Below the pieces are notes generated by a model, which had not been told where the DNA came from, ran no database searches, and saw only the letters and a list, made by a program, of their open reading frames with translations. 38,650 nucleotides of DNA. It comes from a virus. A program made the translations under genes and the position numbers. This document shows, piece by piece, positions 17,830 through 22,638 of this stretch (its first letter is position 1; every line of letters starts with the position of its first letter). The DNA lies in the IMG/VR virus record IMGVR_UViG_3300044911_002571, positions 1 through 38,650 of that record; one strand, given 5' to 3'.

Positions 17830-19350
17830 TCAGCGCGTGGTCTCGAAGAGGTGCGGGTGCTTTGCCTGCGCTCGACGCAGTGCGGTGGCCCTGACCTCGT
17901 TGGGGCCGTACTTCGGGAACTCCCGACGCACGCCCTCCTCCTCGGCGGCGCGAGCCTCCGAGACGGTCTGCGGAACGCTCGCGTCCGCGCGCGCGTGACG
18001 CGAGAACACATCGCCAGTCGGCACGGTGGACGAGCGGAGCGCGTTGACGATCATCCGCTCACGGACGGCCGTGTCCTGGATTGCCAGCGTGTCGGCGACG
18101 AGCTGCTCGAGCTGCTCGCCGCTCAACGTGGCCTTGGCCTCGACGGCGCGGCGCTGGATGGCCTCGCGCGTGTCGCGCTTGGCGACCTCGGCGCGCAGAC
18201 TGGCCACCTCGGCGCGCAGCGCGGGGAGAGCCGTGAGCGCGGCGCGGGCCGCAGTCGCGTCCTGCTGCGACATCGCCGCAGCGTCCGCGCCAGCATCGGC
18301 CGCGGGAGCGCCCTGGCCGAGCGCGCCCTTGAACGCCGCGAGCGACGCCGTGAAGAGGTCGAGCAGCTCACTCGGCGACGCCTCGGGCTTGCCGAAGAGA
18401 TCCTGCATGCCGCCGACGACGCTCGACGCGAACGCCTCGAGCGCGGCCTGGTCCTCGAGACCGGGCACCGCCCGCCTGACGGGCGCGTCGGCTGGAGTCT
18501 TCTGCTCGGGCGGAGTCGTGGCGGACATGGCTTCCGCGGGCGGCGGCGCAGCCGGATTGCCGGCCTGCTCCAGAGCCTTCTCGGTCTTCGCCGCGCTCTT
18601 GATCGCCGCGAGCGCGTCCATCACGGGAGACGCGTAGGACTCGGCGCTCATCTCGTCCTCGACGCTCACGCCGAGCGTGGCTGCGATCTTGGCGAGCAGG
18701 TCGAGAGCAGGGCCGCGAGCGTGCTTCTTGTCGGACATCGTGAGCCTCATCGATCGGAAGTGGATGCCCGCAGTCGCGCGGACGGAGTTGTTGGGTGCCA
18801 GTCCCTCGACAGCCGGAACGTTGGTCAGCGCGTGCTGGAGGAGTCGGCCGTCAGACGAGAAGCCGATCGACCCGTAGGCGAGGCGACCAGAGTCGATGTC
18901 GCGCGCCACGTCGGGCGAGGTCTCGGCGTAGACGTAGAGATGCCAGCGGCCGGCGCGGTCCTGCACCTCGACGCCCGTGTGCACGTAGCCGTCAGAGCGC
19001 GTCTCGGTCGCGCTCAGCTGCGAGTGCGCGGGTGACGTGCCGCCATCCATCGGCGCAGGGCTGCCCGCGTTGAGGCGCGCAGCCATCGTCGCGATGAGGT
19101 CGCGAGTGACCTGCGAGCCATCGGGCGCGGGCGCGCTCTCCTCGGCCGTCGCATCAAGCCAGCGCCACTGACCGTTCTCGCGGCCCGACTCGTCGCGCAG
19201 GATGCCGCGCTTCGGGCGGTAGTCGTTGTCGCTCAGCAGCGAGTCGAGCGCGGCGCGAAGCGTGGGATACGCCTCGCCAGCGTCGGCGTCGCGAAGGCGC
19301 ACCTCTGCTCCGCCCTTGGTCTCGACGACGACGAGCGGGAGAGTGGGCAT
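17830..19350 (-). CDS. Mu gpI-like prohead protease / scaffold protein
   Basis: 506 residues from ATG 19348-19350, preceded by GAGGTG; an in-frame GTG 36 nt upstream would run into the tRNA gene. The N-terminal third (GYVHTGVEVQDRAGRW, YGSIGFSSDGRLLQHALTNVPAVEGL-type region at about residues 120-180) matches the Mu gpI prohead protease family, with a Ser and a His in the expected places. The C-terminal two thirds are Ala/Glu-rich and helical (ALPALRAEVASLRAEVAKR), the scaffold part that is removed during maturation. Encoded between minor head and cement genes, as in Mu and relatives. Confidence 0.85.
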   Translation of the reverse strand: MPTLPLVVVETKGGAEVRLRDADAGEAYPTLRAALDSLLSDNDYRPKRGILRDESGRENGQWRWLDATAEESAPAPDGSQVTRDLIATMAARLNAGSPAPMDGGTSPAHSQLSATETRSDGYVHTGVEVQDRAGRWHLYVYAETSPDVARDIDSGRLAYGSIGFSSDGRLLQHALTNVPAVEGLAPNNSVRATAGIHFRSMRLTMSDKKHARGPALDLLAKIAATLGVSVEDEMSAESYASPVMDALAAIKSAAKTEKALEQAGNPAAPPPAEAMSATTPPEQKTPADAPVRRAVPGLEDQAALEAFASSVVGGMQDLFGKPEASPSELLDLFTASLAAFKGALGQGAPAADAGADAAAMSQQDATAARAALTALPALRAEVASLRAEVAKRDTREAIQRRAVEAKATLSGEQLEQLVADTLAIQDTAVRERMIVNALRSSTVPTGDVFSRHARADASVPQTVSEARAAEEEGVRREFPKYGPNEVRATALRRAQAKHPHLFETTR

Positions 19351-19365
19351 GTGCACCTCAAGCGA

Positions 19366-19438
19366 TTGCGGAGACGGGAATTGCACCCGTGCGTGGCCGG
19401 CTTATGAGGCCGGTGCGTTGCTACTTCGCCACTCCGCG
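19366..19438 (-). tRNA. tRNA-Met (CAT), initiator-like acceptor end
   Basis: 73 nt fold as a cloverleaf. Acceptor CGCGGAG / CTCCGCA gives six pairs and a C1:A72 mismatch, the hallmark of bacterial initiator tRNA. The anticodon stem is CCGGC/GCCGG with loop CTCATAA (anticodon CAT); the T stem is ACGGG/CCCGT with loop TGCAATT; the D stem has three pairs and the D loop lacks the usual GG. The discriminator is A and CCA is not encoded. The anticodon stem lacks the three G:C pairs of true initiators, so it may be an elongator or an Ile2 tRNA (lysidine-modified CAT). It lies 15 nt before the protease gene. Confidence 0.65.
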
Positions 19439-19489
19439 ATAGGCCGCCGAGATTACGGATGCGCGAGCGCAGAGCCGTCGGCGGGCTTG

Positions 19490-21163
19490 TCAGTCAGCGA
19501 GCGGGCCGGGAGCGGACTCCCAGCCAGCATCCGGCGTCACGCCAGCGATGCGGCCCTCGGTGAGCATGTAGCCGCGCGCCTCGAACTGCCTCGCGCTGAT
19601 CGTGGTCAGCGAGCAACGACAGTTGCTCGTGATGATTCCGTTCGCCCCTATCCAGCTGAAAGGCGACTGGAGGTCGAACACATGTCCAGAGAACGAATGG
19701 CGCTTGACGCTGACTACCTTGTCCGTGCCTACGAGGCCGGAGCCTCTGAGAAGAAGCTCGCTGACGAACTTGGCGTCTCGCGCAGTGCCATCAGGCGCAG
19801 ACTGGTCGCGCGCAACGTGAAGCCGCGAGGCCGCTCCGAAGCGGAGCTGCTGAAGTGGTCCGCCATCAAGCGAGACAGAGCCCTCGTCGAGCGCCAGTGC
19901 GGCAGAGCGTGGAATGCCGCGAGGGGTCGAGTCCACACGCTTGAGGAGCGCGTCGCCAGAGCTGCCAGCGGCGGACGCCTCATCGGCAAGCACGAGGACA
20001 CAATCGCCGGTCTGCTCGACGCCGCTGGCTGTGCCGTGGAGCGCCAGTTTGCCTGGGGCCCCTACAACATCGATCTGGCCGCGCATGAAGCGCGCGTCGC
20101 CATCGAAGTCGTTGGGACTCCACCCGTCCACGCTGGCCGAGATAGAGTCCGCGAACGCACCGAATACCTGCTCAATGGCGGCTGGTGCGTGCTCTTTGTC
20201 TACGTTGGTCCACTGTGGGGTCGCCGCACCGTTGAGATCGACGGTGCGTTCGTAACAAACGAGATCGTCTCCCTCGTGGAGAGAGCCCGCCGCAACGAAC
20301 CCGTTCACGGTTGCTATCGGGTGATTCGGGGTGACGGGGAGCCGACGGCCATGCTCCGTAAGTACCTCAACAATCTCCCCGTCGTACCAAGCGCGGTAGG
20401 CGCCGTCGAAGGTGCCCTCAACGACAACGCCTGACGGGAAGCATCGGAAGCCGAGCGGGGGCGCGTAGTACGCGGCCTCGTCGGTGCCCTGCCGGAACAC
20501 GCGGCCGTGAAGCGCGCGGTGCATCGGCCGGACGGCCTCGTCGCCAGCGGTCACGTAGCGAAGGAAGGGGCGCAGCGCGGCGACGTCGGGATCGTTGACG
20601 GCCTGCCATCGGCCAGCGCCGTACGACGTCGCGACGTTCGTTCGCACGACGGTCTCGAGGTAGTGCGGACTCGCGGGCGCGATGCCCATCGCTCGCACCT
20701 CGTCACGCTCCGCAGCGCGGATCGCCTCGTACACCTCGTCGGTGGTGAGGTCTTGCTCGAGAAGCCGCGCGATGCTTGTGCGTGCCACTTCGCGCAGACG
20801 CTCTGTCGCGAGACGCCGCGCCACGAAGCCACCTTCACGGTAGCGGTCACGCAGCGCGTCGAACTCCTCTTCGGAGATCAGCCGCTTCGCGCGGAAGAAC
20901 GCAACCGCGTCGTCGAACGGCATCGCCAAGAACGGCGACTCACGGCGCGAGGTGACGGCGCGTGCTGCGCTGTCGCTGTCCTCTGCGAGCTCGACCTCAC
21001 GCACCATCAACTGGCCGCCGAGCGCCGCTTGAAACGACGTGCGGTAGAGCAGGCCCGCGAGCCTGTCGTCGGTCTGGAGCTGGTCGGCCCAGCGGGCCAC
21101 CACCTCGTCGATGTCACTCGGACCACGCAGCGAGCGCGCGTGCGCCGCGAGCAGGTCGAGCAT
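19490..21163 (-). CDS. Minor head protein (Mu gpF / SPP1 gp7 family) interrupted by an intein
   Basis: 557 residues from ATG 21161-21163; the same frame is protein-like to ~21325 with no start codon, so the N-terminus is unsettled (see the slippery site). N-extein motifs: EEEFDALRDRYREGGF, VVRTNVATSYGAGRWQ and TAGDEAVRPMHRALHG, the signature of the Phage_Mu_F family, which helps in head assembly and DNA delivery. After PPLGFR a 274-residue intein begins (residues 241-514), and the C-extein resumes with CRCSLTTISARQF. Thus the intein sits in the conserved Cys-rich end of the domain. Downstream of the portal gene and upstream of the protease gene. Confidence 0.88.
   Translation of the reverse strand: MLDLLAAHARSLRGPSDIDEVVARWADQLQTDDRLAGLLYRTSFQAALGGQLMVREVELAEDSDSAARAVTSRRESPFLAMPFDDAVAFFRAKRLISEEEFDALRDRYREGGFVARRLATERLREVARTSIARLLEQDLTTDEVYEAIRAAERDEVRAMGIAPASPHYLETVVRTNVATSYGAGRWQAVNDPDVAALRPFLRYVTAGDEAVRPMHRALHGRVFRQGTDEAAYYAPPLGFRCFPSGVVVEGTFDGAYRAWYDGEIVEVLTEHGRRLPVTPNHPIATVNGFVAAGSLHEGDDLVCYERTVDLNGAATPQWTNVDKEHAPAAIEQVFGAFADSISASVDGWSPNDFDGDARFMRGQIDVVGAPGKLALHGTASGVEQTGDCVLVLADEASAAGSSGDALLKRVDSTPRGIPRSAALALDEGSVSLDGGPLQQLRFGAASRLHVARDQSAPDGTARDAKFVSELLLRGSGLVGTDKVVSVKRHSFSGHVFDLQSPFSWIGANGIITSNCRCSLTTISARQFEARGYMLTEGRIAGVTPDAGWESAPGPLAD
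19622..20443 (-). mobile_element. Intein, 274 residues, inside the minor head gene
   Basis: Residue 1 is Cys in block A (CFPSGVVVEGTFDGA). Block B is RLPVTPNHPIATVNGF with the TxxH motif (T38, H41) and a following LHEGDDL. Near the C-terminus, DKVVSVKRHSFSGHVFDLQS matches block F, and NGIITSN is block G, ending in Asn274 with Cys as the +1 residue. The penultimate residue is Ser, not His, which occurs in active inteins. About 180 residues separate blocks B and F; they contain no LAGLIDADG or HNH motif. Instead the opposite strand carries a homing endonuclease gene. Because reading is continuous, splicing would be in cis. The intein is 822 nt, in frame with both exteins. Confidence 0.92.
19682..20434 (+). 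CDS. HTH + EDxHD (Vsr-like) homing endonuclease, antisense within the intein
   Basis: 250 residues. ATG 19682-19684 follows a perfect GGAGGT (19669-19674) at 7 nt. An N-terminal helix-turn-helix is visible at residues ~20-48 (ASEKKLADELGVSRSAIRRR). The nuclease core has E105, then PYNIDLAAHEARVAIEV (D131, E142), then PPVHAGRDR (H150, D154) and NGGWCVLFVYV, the arrangement of EDxHD/Vsr-like homing endonucleases known from phage introns and from genes between split inteins. The C-terminal PVHGCYRVIRGDGEPTA is also recalled from such proteins. The frame is in exact codon register with intein residues 254 to 4; its stop complements intein Ser4. It opposes the late operon's direction. Confidence 0.85.
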   Translation: MSRERMALDADYLVRAYEAGASEKKLADELGVSRSAIRRRLVARNVKPRGRSEAELLKWSAIKRDRALVERQCGRAWNAARGRVHTLEERVARAASGGRLIGKHEDTIAGLLDAAGCAVERQFAWGPYNIDLAAHEARVAIEVVGTPPVHAGRDRVRERTEYLLNGGWCVLFVYVGPLWGRRTVEIDGAFVTNEIVSLVERARRNEPVHGCYRVIRGDGEPTAMLRKYLNNLPVVPSAVGAVEGALNDNA

Positions 21164-21204
21164 CGAGCGGCCGAGAGACGCGCTCTCGAGGAGCGCCTCA
21201 GCGG

Positions 21205-22638
21205 CTAGTGCGCCCGGTCGTCCGACGACTGCCTGAGCAGTCGCGCGAGCGGATGCGTCGAGGTCTGCGACGTCGCCCCACTCGGCGTCATCGCGGCCCT
21301 CGGAAAAGGGACCTCCGCAGACGCACCCCCCGGCGCGCTTGTGGAGGCTGGGAGGGAAAGAGGCGACCCGCTGTACGCGGGCGGAAGCTGTGGCGCGGCG
21401 AACGCGTCGCCGCCGTCGATCGCGTCGTAGCCGTTCGACGTGCGGAGCTCGTTCTTCGTGCAGAGACCGGCCTGGTACTCCGCGACGCTCCACGGGCGCT
21501 GCGCCTGCACTGCCGTCTCGATGACTGGCACGACGGCGCCGGGGCGATTGAAACGCACGAGCGGCGCGAGCCACTGATCGCAGATCGTCTCGTCGAGCTC
21601 GGTGAGGTCGGCCGCGAGGATGTCGCCGCGCACCTGCGCTTGCGCCTGGCTGCCGTACGTCTGCGCGTCCTTGACCTCGATGCTGAGGTTGCCGCCGAGT
21701 AGCGAGACCGCGTACTCCGTGTTGCAGTAGTCCGCGAACAGCTTGTGCAGTTCGGGGTAGAGCGAGACGGGGATCTCGTTGATCTCGACGCCCGTGCGGA
21801 ACGCCGCGCGCCACGTCGAGGACAACTGCCCAAGCTGGTCAACCACCTCGTCAAGCATCGTCGTGGACGTGCTCGGGTCGTTGACCACGCCGTACAGCTG
21901 CGGCTGGCCGTACCGCTCGATCATCTCGAGCCACCAGCGCAGCCCGAACCGCTTCGCGAGCGCGAGCGCGAGGAGCGGACGCAGCGCGCCGCGCTTCTGG
22001 AGACGTAGATGCACGCCGCCCGTTGGGCTGTGCACGATGAACTTGTGCGGCCACGAGGACAGCGGCTTGCCGTGGCACTCCGCGCCAGGCTCGTACACGC
22101 ACAACTCGCCGTACTCATCGACGGAGAGGCGCGTGGGATCGATGGGGCGCGGACGCGAGACGACCCACCCGCGCGAATCGAGCTGCCAGTCGTGCTCGAG
22201 GACGCCGACGCCGCGGAGGATGCCCTGCGCAAGCTCGGCGCGACGACGCGCGAAGCCAGGCGTCTCGTAGAGGATCGTCGAGACCGACTGCGCCGTTGCG
22301 AGCGCGTCGCGGTCCTGCTCGTAGCCGACCGGTGGGCGCACTGCCCAGCGCCTCGACGTGATCGCGTGAATGCGCGCAGCGGACACGCCACGAAGGCGCG
22401 AGTCACGCACGAGCGCGCCCTCGTAGATGGCCTGTAGCGGCGAGATCGTGCCGACGTCAGCGGAGCGCAGTGCGCTCACGAGCTGCTGGCCAGCGTTGAC
22501 CTCGTACTCCATCGGATCGCTGACCTGCCGCGACGTGCGAGGCACGCCGTACACGCGACCGACGGGAGCGCCGCCGCTGAGCGTCAGCGGGGCGGCTGCC
22601 GCGCGCTTGCTCCACGGGAGCCAGTCGGTCCACGCCAT
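21205..22638 (-). CDS. Portal protein (Mu gp29-like, DUF935)
   Basis: 477 residues, ATG start preceded by GGAGG. Family motifs: RRWAVRPPVGYEQDRDAL, GVLEHDWQLDSRGWVV, LRWWLEMIERYGQPQLYGVV and ADYCNTEYAVSLLGGNLSIE, typical of DUF935 portals, which form the DNA entry ring of the head. The last ~40 residues after the G6 tract (21326-21331) look unlike a family C-terminus, while the -1 frame at that place continues as CVCGGPFSEG and joins the minor head protein. So the annotated end at 21205 may be one of two products. Confidence 0.88.
   Translation of the reverse strand: MAWTDWLPWSKRAAAAPLTLSGGAPVGRVYGVPRTSRQVSDPMEYEVNAGQQLVSALRSADVGTISPLQAIYEGALVRDSRLRGVSAARIHAITSRRWAVRPPVGYEQDRDALATAQSVSTILYETPGFARRRAELAQGILRGVGVLEHDWQLDSRGWVVSRPRPIDPTRLSVDEYGELCVYEPGAECHGKPLSSWPHKFIVHSPTGGVHLRLQKRGALRPLLALALAKRFGLRWWLEMIERYGQPQLYGVVNDPSTSTTMLDEVVDQLGQLSSTWRAAFRTGVEINEIPVSLYPELHKLFADYCNTEYAVSLLGGNLSIEVKDAQTYGSQAQAQVRGDILAADLTELDETICDQWLAPLVRFNRPGAVVPVIETAVQAQRPWSVAEYQAGLCTKNELRTSNGYDAIDGGDAFAAPQLPPAYSGSPLSLPASTSAPGGASAEVPFPRAAMTPSGATSQTSTHPLARLLRQSSDDRAH
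21325..21331 (-). promoter_or_regulatory. Slippery heptamer GGGGGGT at portal 3' end
   Basis: In portal frame the sequence is G GGG GGT, a formally perfect X XXY YYZ heptamer. A -1 slip continues as TGC GTC TGC into the minor head frame, which has no start codon until 21163 although it looks coding from here. It could be a programmed -1 site making a portal-minor head fusion, or a homopolymer length error. Evidence is sequence only. Confidence 0.45.

Follow-up and report, generated by a model that had tools for sequence, protein, structure and literature searches.

Mobile inteins such as PI-PfuI and the Mtu RecA intein carry an in-frame endonuclease domain, and split inteins with free-standing endonucleases, in which the endonuclease gene lies between the intein halves, were reportedly described by Dassa in 2009 in "fractured genes." To our knowledge, inteins with homing endonucleases carry the nuclease either in frame or beside split halves. 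We analyzed IMG/VR virus record IMGVR_UViG_3300044911_002571 (38,650 bases; this whole stretch is called the window below), in which an intein interrupts a phage head gene on the minus strand and a homing-endonuclease-like gene runs through the same codons on the plus strand. The element shares with PI-PfuI and the Mtu RecA intein the splicing fold, the splicing motifs, insertion at a conserved motif, and precise empty alleles, but its endonuclease is a separate, Vsr-like gene on the opposite strand, and the linker standing in place of an endonuclease domain is predicted to be largely disordered. As is said of the split inteins, the endonuclease is separate from the intein, whereas in our case the intein is unbroken and the opposite strand carries the gene across it. 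We consider it very probable that the element belongs to a mobile intein family whose homing endonuclease is a separate antisense gene in exact codon register, not an intein domain. With almost the same confidence, we regard this family as a large, ancient class of mobile inteins in tailed phages of many bacterial phyla, with splicing protein and homing endonuclease on opposite strands in exact codon register and with the start codon, the Shine-Dalgarno sequence, and sometimes a promoter-like box of the nuclease gene lying antisense in intein blocks F and G.

Other described systems share parts of this arrangement. Nuclear group I introns can harbor antisense His-Cys endonuclease genes (I-DsqI), which an excerpt of PMC9548176 reports as expressed and active; the likeness lies in a homing endonuclease gene antisense to a self-splicing host element, but the intron need only fold as RNA, whereas here both strands carry protein in the same codons. 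The ShiLan domain, a hidden out-of-frame HNH endonuclease in phage methylases, is read on the same strand (the "third frame"), and the excerpt of PMC11855218 mentions that no splicing domain was detected; both cases have an endonuclease that overlaps a second reading frame within a phage insertion, but in ours the insertion is an intein, the strand is the opposite one, and the nuclease is unrelated. The EDxHD homing endonuclease I-Bth0305I (3r3p) is intron-associated, with the PDB name "Mobile intron protein," whereas the present nuclease lies antisense inside an intein. The Vsr-like, DUF559, and MTES_1575 nucleases (1cw0, 3hrl) share the core fold, but here the nuclease is joined to a helix-turn-helix (HTH) domain and encoded antisense inside an intein. 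An intein in the MuF head gene has already been noted in Salmonella phages, according to a portion of PMC8425127, and is also stated in the record of Escherichia phage Snoke. The function of prokaryotic antisense proteins is still disputed, as a section of PMC7457138 indicates. In the titles and abstract openings of the open-licence literature, we found no description of an endonuclease gene lying antisense to an intein; mobile inteins are known, and it is the antisense coding arrangement that was not found described there.

The intein and the antisense gene in the window

The host gene (positions 19490..21814, minus strand, start codon uncertain) encodes a phage head morphogenesis protein of the Mu gpF/SPP1 gp7 type, or MuF, and in the profile search it matched Phage_Mu_F (PF04233) with E 1.3e-10 and TIGR01641 with 8.7e-12. 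The intein (19622..20443, minus strand) comprises 274 residues from Cys1 to Asn274, followed by Cys+1, and its insertion point precedes the first Cys in a CRC motif; its assignment is supported by motifs, profiles, the predicted model, and fold comparison. The motifs include Cys1, TPNH at residues 38-41, GHVFDLQ in block F, and a Ser-Asn274 end before Cys+1. The window intein matched the Pfam family Intein_splicing (PF14890) with E 5.1e-5 and 23.6 bits, under the family's curated cut-off of 35.8 bits, and PHROG 15127 "head protein" with 4e-22, and Intein_splicing was matched by 84/84 family members (E ≤ 0.01). A reading as a pretoxin Hint domain was rejected, as PT-HINT was matched by only 4/84 members, and weakly, against 84/84 for Intein_splicing, and the host protein continues after Cys+1.

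The predicted intein model has two confident ends around a disordered middle. The N-terminal splicing part (residues 1-65; 20249..20443, minus strand) holds block A and the block B TPNH, with T38, H41, and G48 invariant in 155/155 loci, and the C-terminal splicing part (residues 235-274; 19622..19741, minus strand) holds blocks F and G. Mean predicted local distance difference test (pLDDT) values were 93-98 in blocks of residues 1-60 and 92-98 from 241-274, and fell under 50 at 131-180, 185-195, and 201-221. These low values fall in the linker (residues 131-221; 19781..20053, minus strand), which is predicted to be largely disordered and whose sequence, on the pLDDT and substitution evidence, is mostly set by the antisense gene. 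The splicing fold matched the Mtu RecA intein with Z 13.7 (root-mean-square deviation 1.4 over 105 residues) and PI-PfuI with Z 10.4. The initial annotation, which had described a 274-residue intein with Cys1, TPNH, blocks F/G, and Asn274-Cys+1 in a Mu gpF-like minus-strand gene, agrees with these motifs and with the PF14890 and PF04233 matches.

The antisense gene (19682..20434, plus strand) starts with ATG and has 250 codons and a TGA stop, in exact codon register with the intein: its codons are those of intein residues 254 down to 5, and the stop is antisense of Ser4 (TCA). The ATG (19682..19684, plus strand) is antisense of the His codon (CAT) in the block F "GHVF," and a Shine-Dalgarno sequence, GGAGGT (19669..19674, plus strand), lies 7 nt before it, antisense of the block F Asp-Leu. 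The encoded protein has a predicted HTH DNA-binding domain at residues 10-43 (19709..19810, plus strand), supported by HTH_23 and other matches under cut-off, by the model, and by the fold, and a predicted Vsr-like nuclease core of the PD-(D/E)XK type at residues 103-174 (19988..20203, plus strand), with E105, Q122, Y128, N129, D131, E142, and R159 marked out by model, fold, and conservation. Alone, the window protein gave only weak profile matches, all under curated cut-offs (MTES_1575 nuclease 7.5e-5, HTH_23 3.4e-4, DUF559 6.5e-4), and the sole match in a scan with the window nuclease alone was a near-identical record. Annotation of the antisense gene was usually absent in the records examined; in Salmonella phage PK2 (L227, 1111-1920), the antisense ORF (open reading frame) is annotated as hypothetical protein XRA40007.1.

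Antisense coding across the family

Relatives were collected from phage records, from IMG/VR, and from a scan of one genome per species, and the collection scans used the block B T-x-x-H motif. In phage records, tblastn gave 127 matches for the intein and 79 for the antisense protein, and 15 records were taken from the 60 listed of the 127 and the 60 listed of the 79. The intein-based scan of IMG/VR returned at least 565 relatives among 600 stretches and a second scan, with another lead sequence, at least 525 among 600, with 80 kept from each; the family is thus larger than counted. The viral sample leans toward better intein matches, linker included, and short-linker inteins without a nuclease could be under-sampled. 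The species scan yielded 34 loci, of which 30 were kept as family members and 4 (L129-L132) were dropped as non-family, with intein-profile E values of 4e-20 to 7e-10. Record names among the species-scan loci include Ornatilinea, Mycolicibacterium, Glycomyces, Streptomyces, Micromonospora, Lachnoclostridium, Flavonifractor, Paenibacillus, Rhizobium, and Aggregatibacter, along with metagenome-assembled genomes named Chloroflexi, Planctomycetes, Rhabdochlamydiaceae, Peregrinibacteria, and Dojkabacteria. Altogether there were 190 family loci, some of them drawn more than once from one contig or record, and 160 distinct loci after removal of those sharing at least half of their 5-mers. Apart from the window and the 15 phage records, the loci were found through the intein and not through the nuclease.

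The splicing residues were well kept across these loci. Position 1 was Cys in 153/160 distinct loci, with Cys1 not located by the script in the other 7, and the block B residues T38 and H41 were present in 155/155. The +1 residue was Cys in 153 of the distinct loci, Thr in 3, Ser in 2, and Gly and Ala in 1 each, and a Cys-x-Cys motif followed the intein in 129/160. Eight further N-exteins were searched, 6 matching Phage_Mu_F (2 of them just under the cut-off) and 2 Phage_min_cap2. The family intein of Mycobacterium phage Sejanus (L003, 1992-2807) lies at a different insertion site of its gene, V|CTIDGKTR. At 7 loci (L038, L091, L104, L108, L115, L117, and L120), intein-profile matches within one ORF span far beyond one intein length, and a second insertion or stray matches are possible.

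On the strand antisense to the intein, a profile hidden Markov model (HMM) of the nuclease found a match in every case: 97/97 sequences in the first set, which counts both the window and L001, a near-identical copy of it, and 94/94 family loci in the second. The antisense frame was open for at least 200 codons from the block-F place in 155 of the 160 distinct loci, and among these 155 the start at that place was ATG in 111 and GTG in 31 (142 together). When any 200-codon run inside the intein was counted, the in-register antisense frame had one in 156/160 loci, but each of the four remaining alternative frames had one in only 1 to 4; among loci with under 50% guanine-cytosine (GC) content, the figures were 32/34 for the in-register frame and 0/34 for each other alternative frame. 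Stop codons in the in-register antisense frame numbered 32, against 698 expected from extein codon use (n = 156).

These figures have to be set against the reading that the antisense ORF is a mechanical shadow, with high GC and conserved intein codons keeping the complementary frame open and seemingly conserved. High-GC antisense ORFs are common, and the window itself holds 171 ORFs of at least 100 residues. When the window intein was recoded synonymously, a fraction of 0.015 of 200 recodings had an equally long antisense run, and because this happens at GC 0.68, one locus is weak evidence. Across the family, 36/96 loci beat all 200 recodings, and 63/96 had p < 0.05, leaving 33/96 with p ≥ 0.05. 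Nuclease-HMM scores were 139.7-339.8 bits for the real antisense proteins and 8.6-136.4 bits for 1920 recoded controls, 2 disjoint ranges, with the proviso that 16 of these 96 loci also belonged to the HMM training set.

The start signals of the antisense gene also leave a trace in intein codon use, which was counted in 83 distinct loci of the first set, with a recognizable motif in 80 for the block-F His and in 75 for the Leu opposite the Shine-Dalgarno sequence. The His codon was CAT in 64/80 and CAC, giving a GTG start, in 16/80, where a CAT fraction of 0.38 was expected; the control His of block B was CAT in 25/83. The Leu codon was CTC in 61/75 versus 0.28 expected. Selection at these synonymous sites was significant for the start codon (p 5e-14) and for the Shine-Dalgarno sequence (p 3e-21). 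The ATG stood two codons further on in 13 loci, and in 12 of these 13 the usual block-F His was absent. Within block G, −10-like hexamers had 4.87 matches of 6 compared with 4.19 in recoded controls (p 3e-11, n = 69); this test covered 69 of the 83 loci, the others being set aside because under 12 codons followed the intein or a codon was ambiguous. The promoter score was at least 8 in 43 loci, and in 22 of these 43 the box was at one of two positions.

We estimated nonsynonymous to synonymous rate ratios (dN/dS) in both frames from 13 pairs sharing no locus, cut from 65 candidate pairs, at 72-99% identity; some pairs come from related lineages, and only single-difference codons were classed. 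Being in register, the two genes pair intein codon position 3 with nuclease position 1 and vice versa. In the extein, position-3 changes exceeded position-1 changes in 13/13 pairs, and in the intein linker the excess moved to position 1, the antisense wobble position, in 12/13. For the extein, dN/dS was 0.14 in the sense frame and 1.05 (0.79-1.35), i.e., neutral, in the antisense frame. Both frames were constrained at intein residues 16-70 (sense 0.12, antisense 0.11), and in the linker the ratio was 0.54 (0.44-0.68) for the intein and 0.11 (0.09-0.15) for the antisense frame. The last 20 intein residues, which lie outside the nuclease gene, gave 0.07 for the sense and 1.31 (0.54-7.65) for the antisense frame. 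An earlier version with 9 pairs gave the same picture. Judged by these substitution patterns, both genes are under purifying selection, and the sequence of the intein linker is for the most part a shadow cast by the nuclease gene, with the N-terminal splicing part held in both frames.

Conservation by column shows a reciprocal mosaic. In 155 loci, the nuclease residues E105 (150 loci), D131 (153), E142 (154), R159 (145), and G20 (154) lie mostly opposite variable intein residues, and the intein residues T38, H41, and G48 (155 each) and N40 (149) lie mostly opposite variable nuclease residues; around A140 and Q122, both strands are conserved. The intein "motifs" VDFHGD and EIEVV are read as nuclease imprints because they are the complements of the nuclease VAxEV and PYNxD; if the arrangement is as we propose, they are explained as imprints of the nuclease active site and not by intein function. 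This is also a warning for annotation, as residues conserved in an intein linker can merely reflect the gene on the opposite strand. In tools built from these inteins, the linker could probably be exchanged once the nuclease is unneeded.

The initial annotation had proposed a mobile intein with both strands coding, and the nuclease matches, the 155/160 open frames, and the purifying selection on the antisense frame support this. Its view that antisense stops must be avoided fits the 32 stops seen, and the plus-strand frame is not broken in all close relatives but constrained at the codon level. Its statement that selection must hold both proteins stands in that both are under purifying selection, but the hold is unequal, as the linker values show. 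Such an overlap would cost the element little or no extra length for its second gene, which would be hard to lose without touching the splicing protein, and the 160 distinct loci offer a natural replicated system for quantifying how one DNA duplex accommodates two unrelated folds. If our reading is right, these gene pairs would rank among the longest and most broadly conserved complete antisense overlaps known.

Classification of the antisense protein

The predicted nuclease model (pLDDT 89.9, predicted template modeling score 0.78) consists of the HTH, helices, and then an alpha-beta-beta-beta-alpha-beta core. With VIA-align, the core matched Vsr (1cw0) with Z 11.0 and both 3hrl and I-Bth0305I with Z 10.1; Z values against Vsr-like structures were 11.0, 10.3, and 10.1, and mitoribosomal chains (Z 7.2-9.5) ranked behind Vsr, 3hrl, and I-Bth0305I. 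Profile search of the PDB with alignment A4 found 3hrl (1.4e-7), I-Bth0305I (3r3p, 1.3e-5), and Vsr (1cw0, 0.007), and the smaller alignment A6 found 3hrl (5e-7) and Vsr (0.002). PF18741 was matched by 77/120 members and DUF559 by 23/120 (E ≤ 0.01).

The plus-strand gene had initially been described as 250 codons in register with the intein, with an HTH and an EDxHD/Vsr-like core; the frame, the HTH, and the Vsr-like assignment hold, with PDB profile matches now behind the last, but the EDxHD label does not. Across 155 sequences, none of the nuclease columns with at least 85% conservation was a His, and the EDxHD H-D pair is not conserved; for this reason, the EDxHD filing was not kept and the nuclease is filed as Vsr-like. 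The conserved E105 aligns with a Glu of 3r3p, and D131, the YNxD aspartate, aligns with an Ala there. As modeled, the antisense protein has a fold of the Vsr-like superfamily with conserved E105, D131, and E142. In 6 loci (L009, L010, L011, L013, L014, and L015), the antisense proteins are longer (280-299 residues) and have one more HTH-like stretch close to the N-terminus, with the intein linker lengthened to match; this stretch possibly corresponds to a longer DNA target.

Mobility and competing explanations

Empty alleles were identified in three phage groups, each an intein-free MuF gene shorter by exactly the intein length: 852 versus 1659 with an intein of 807 in Pseudomonas phages, 1037 versus 1853 with an intein of 816 in Salmonella phages, and 2304 versus 3252 with an intein of 948 in Gordonia phages. 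Across one aligned junction each, identity was 118/120, 97/120, and 108/120 nt, respectively. In Salmonella phages, carrier and empty alleles diverged more right at the junction than at a distance from it, whichever side was compared; in Gordonia phages, this held for one side. Such raised divergence could be a trace of co-conversion. Gordonia phage Kewpiedoll carries a 275-residue antisense-coding intein at the same site as the different, 316-residue intein of Vivi2, in genes 94.4% identical over the aligning 72%. Related Gordonia phages (L009/L010 versus L012/L017) have inteins of 316 and 275 residues with their own antisense nucleases at the same MuF site, with empty alleles beside them.

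Of the 5 exceptions to the open frame, stops interrupt the antisense gene in L045 and L065, L113 (210 residues) and L126 (194 residues) are shortened inteins with a broken antisense gene, and L112 runs to the contig end; the first 4 keep their splicing ends and resemble homing elements in the decay phase of their cycle. In Acinetobacter phage IME285, a relative of the nuclease is free-standing (L228, 455-1348; AYP68850.1) and convergent with an intein-free MuF gene, and it is plausibly an ancestor or an escapee of the antisense gene. The complement of this free-standing gene gave a weak 12.5-bit match to the linker part of the intein profile, which shadow could explain. A nuclease-first search of the 29 genomes behind the loci returned the known copies and, in one genome, the element a second time (L121), and otherwise only weaker or partial matches, some of them pieces of the same gene.

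Under our reading, the phage would make the MuF head protein from the minus strand with the intein inside, and the splicing motifs and fold suggest that the intein would excise itself and join the head-protein halves. On the plus strand, ribosomes would start at the Shine-Dalgarno sequence and ATG antisense within block F and produce the 250-residue HTH and Vsr-like protein. In a co-infecting phage whose MuF gene lacks the intein, this protein would recognize and cut that gene, and repair of the break would copy in the whole element, both genes together, as the precise empty alleles and the patchy distribution suggest. The DNA would be shared by complementary tolerance, with the nuclease active-site residues opposite the floppy, fast-changing linker and the splicing residues opposite variable nuclease parts.

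Several points weigh against this account. Splicing and homing are inferred, as are the cutting of DNA, the choice of target, and the transcription and translation of the antisense gene, for the window copy in particular, and the search for empty alleles covered relatives and not the window's own lineage. The junction divergence expected of co-conversion appeared in only two of the three comparisons, with none in Pseudomonas. Among the 155 open loci, 13 had neither ATG nor GTG at the block-F place, individual p values were below 0.05 in only 13/69 loci for the −10 box and 9/69 for the whole promoter, and no recognizable sigma-70 promoter was found for the window's antisense gene (best 6 of 12). 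One frame's shadow on the other is real, the recoded controls averaging 63 bits with the nuclease HMM, and it is these non-zero scores that make the recoding control necessary. With Foldseek alone, the nuclease had no PDB match with E < 0.001, I-Bth0305I (0.014) and Vsr (0.016) ranking first, and I-Bth0305I 3r3p was not matched at E ≤ 0.01 with A6, its profile match depending on the alignment. Lastly, the penultimate residue of the window intein is Ser, and the usual His is absent. The penultimate pair was SN in 70 and HN in 69 of the 160 distinct loci. A penultimate His is not universal among inteins, and for that reason the Ser-Asn end was not treated as excluding intein membership.

Among the competing explanations, the one that survives best, itself unlikely, is that the element was once mobile and that the window copy is now fixed or its nuclease silent, the antisense frame being a recent relic. 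It would account for the lack of a promoter-like site upstream of the window's antisense gene, and intein-bearing copies with a decayed nuclease do exist elsewhere, but the window copy retains the Shine-Dalgarno sequence, the ATG, E105, Q122, Y128, N129, D131, E142, and R159, and the full frame, and the sigma-70 consensus is a poor guide for GC-rich hosts. Somewhat less likely still is a real antisense protein that is not, or not only, a mobility enzyme and is kept for phage benefit, cutting rival phage DNA or regulating the head gene via its HTH. An HTH joined to a nuclease also fits exclusion or regulation, and a frame intact in 155/160 loci is perhaps longer-lived than a pure homing cycle might predict; on the other side, a place within an intein that occupies a conserved position in a conserved gene, precise empty alleles, and a few decayed copies (L045, L065, L113, and L126) are typical of homing elements, and the nuclease core resembles that of I-Bth0305I. 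The mechanical shadow described above is highly improbable and was rejected at the family level, since it is opposed by the recoding test, the selected start codon and Shine-Dalgarno sequence, the 200-codon runs at low GC, the substitution pattern that flips toward the antisense frame, the matches to independent nuclease families and solved nucleases, and the free-standing relative beside an uninterrupted MuF gene, even with a window run reached by some recodings and controls that keep a residual score.

Next to the host gene in the window, a tRNA-Met gene (anticodon CAT; 19364-19439, minus strand) lies 50 nt downstream of the MuF gene, inside the head-gene cluster. A listed ORF at 17830-19386 overlaps it by 23 nt, provided that its GTG start is right.

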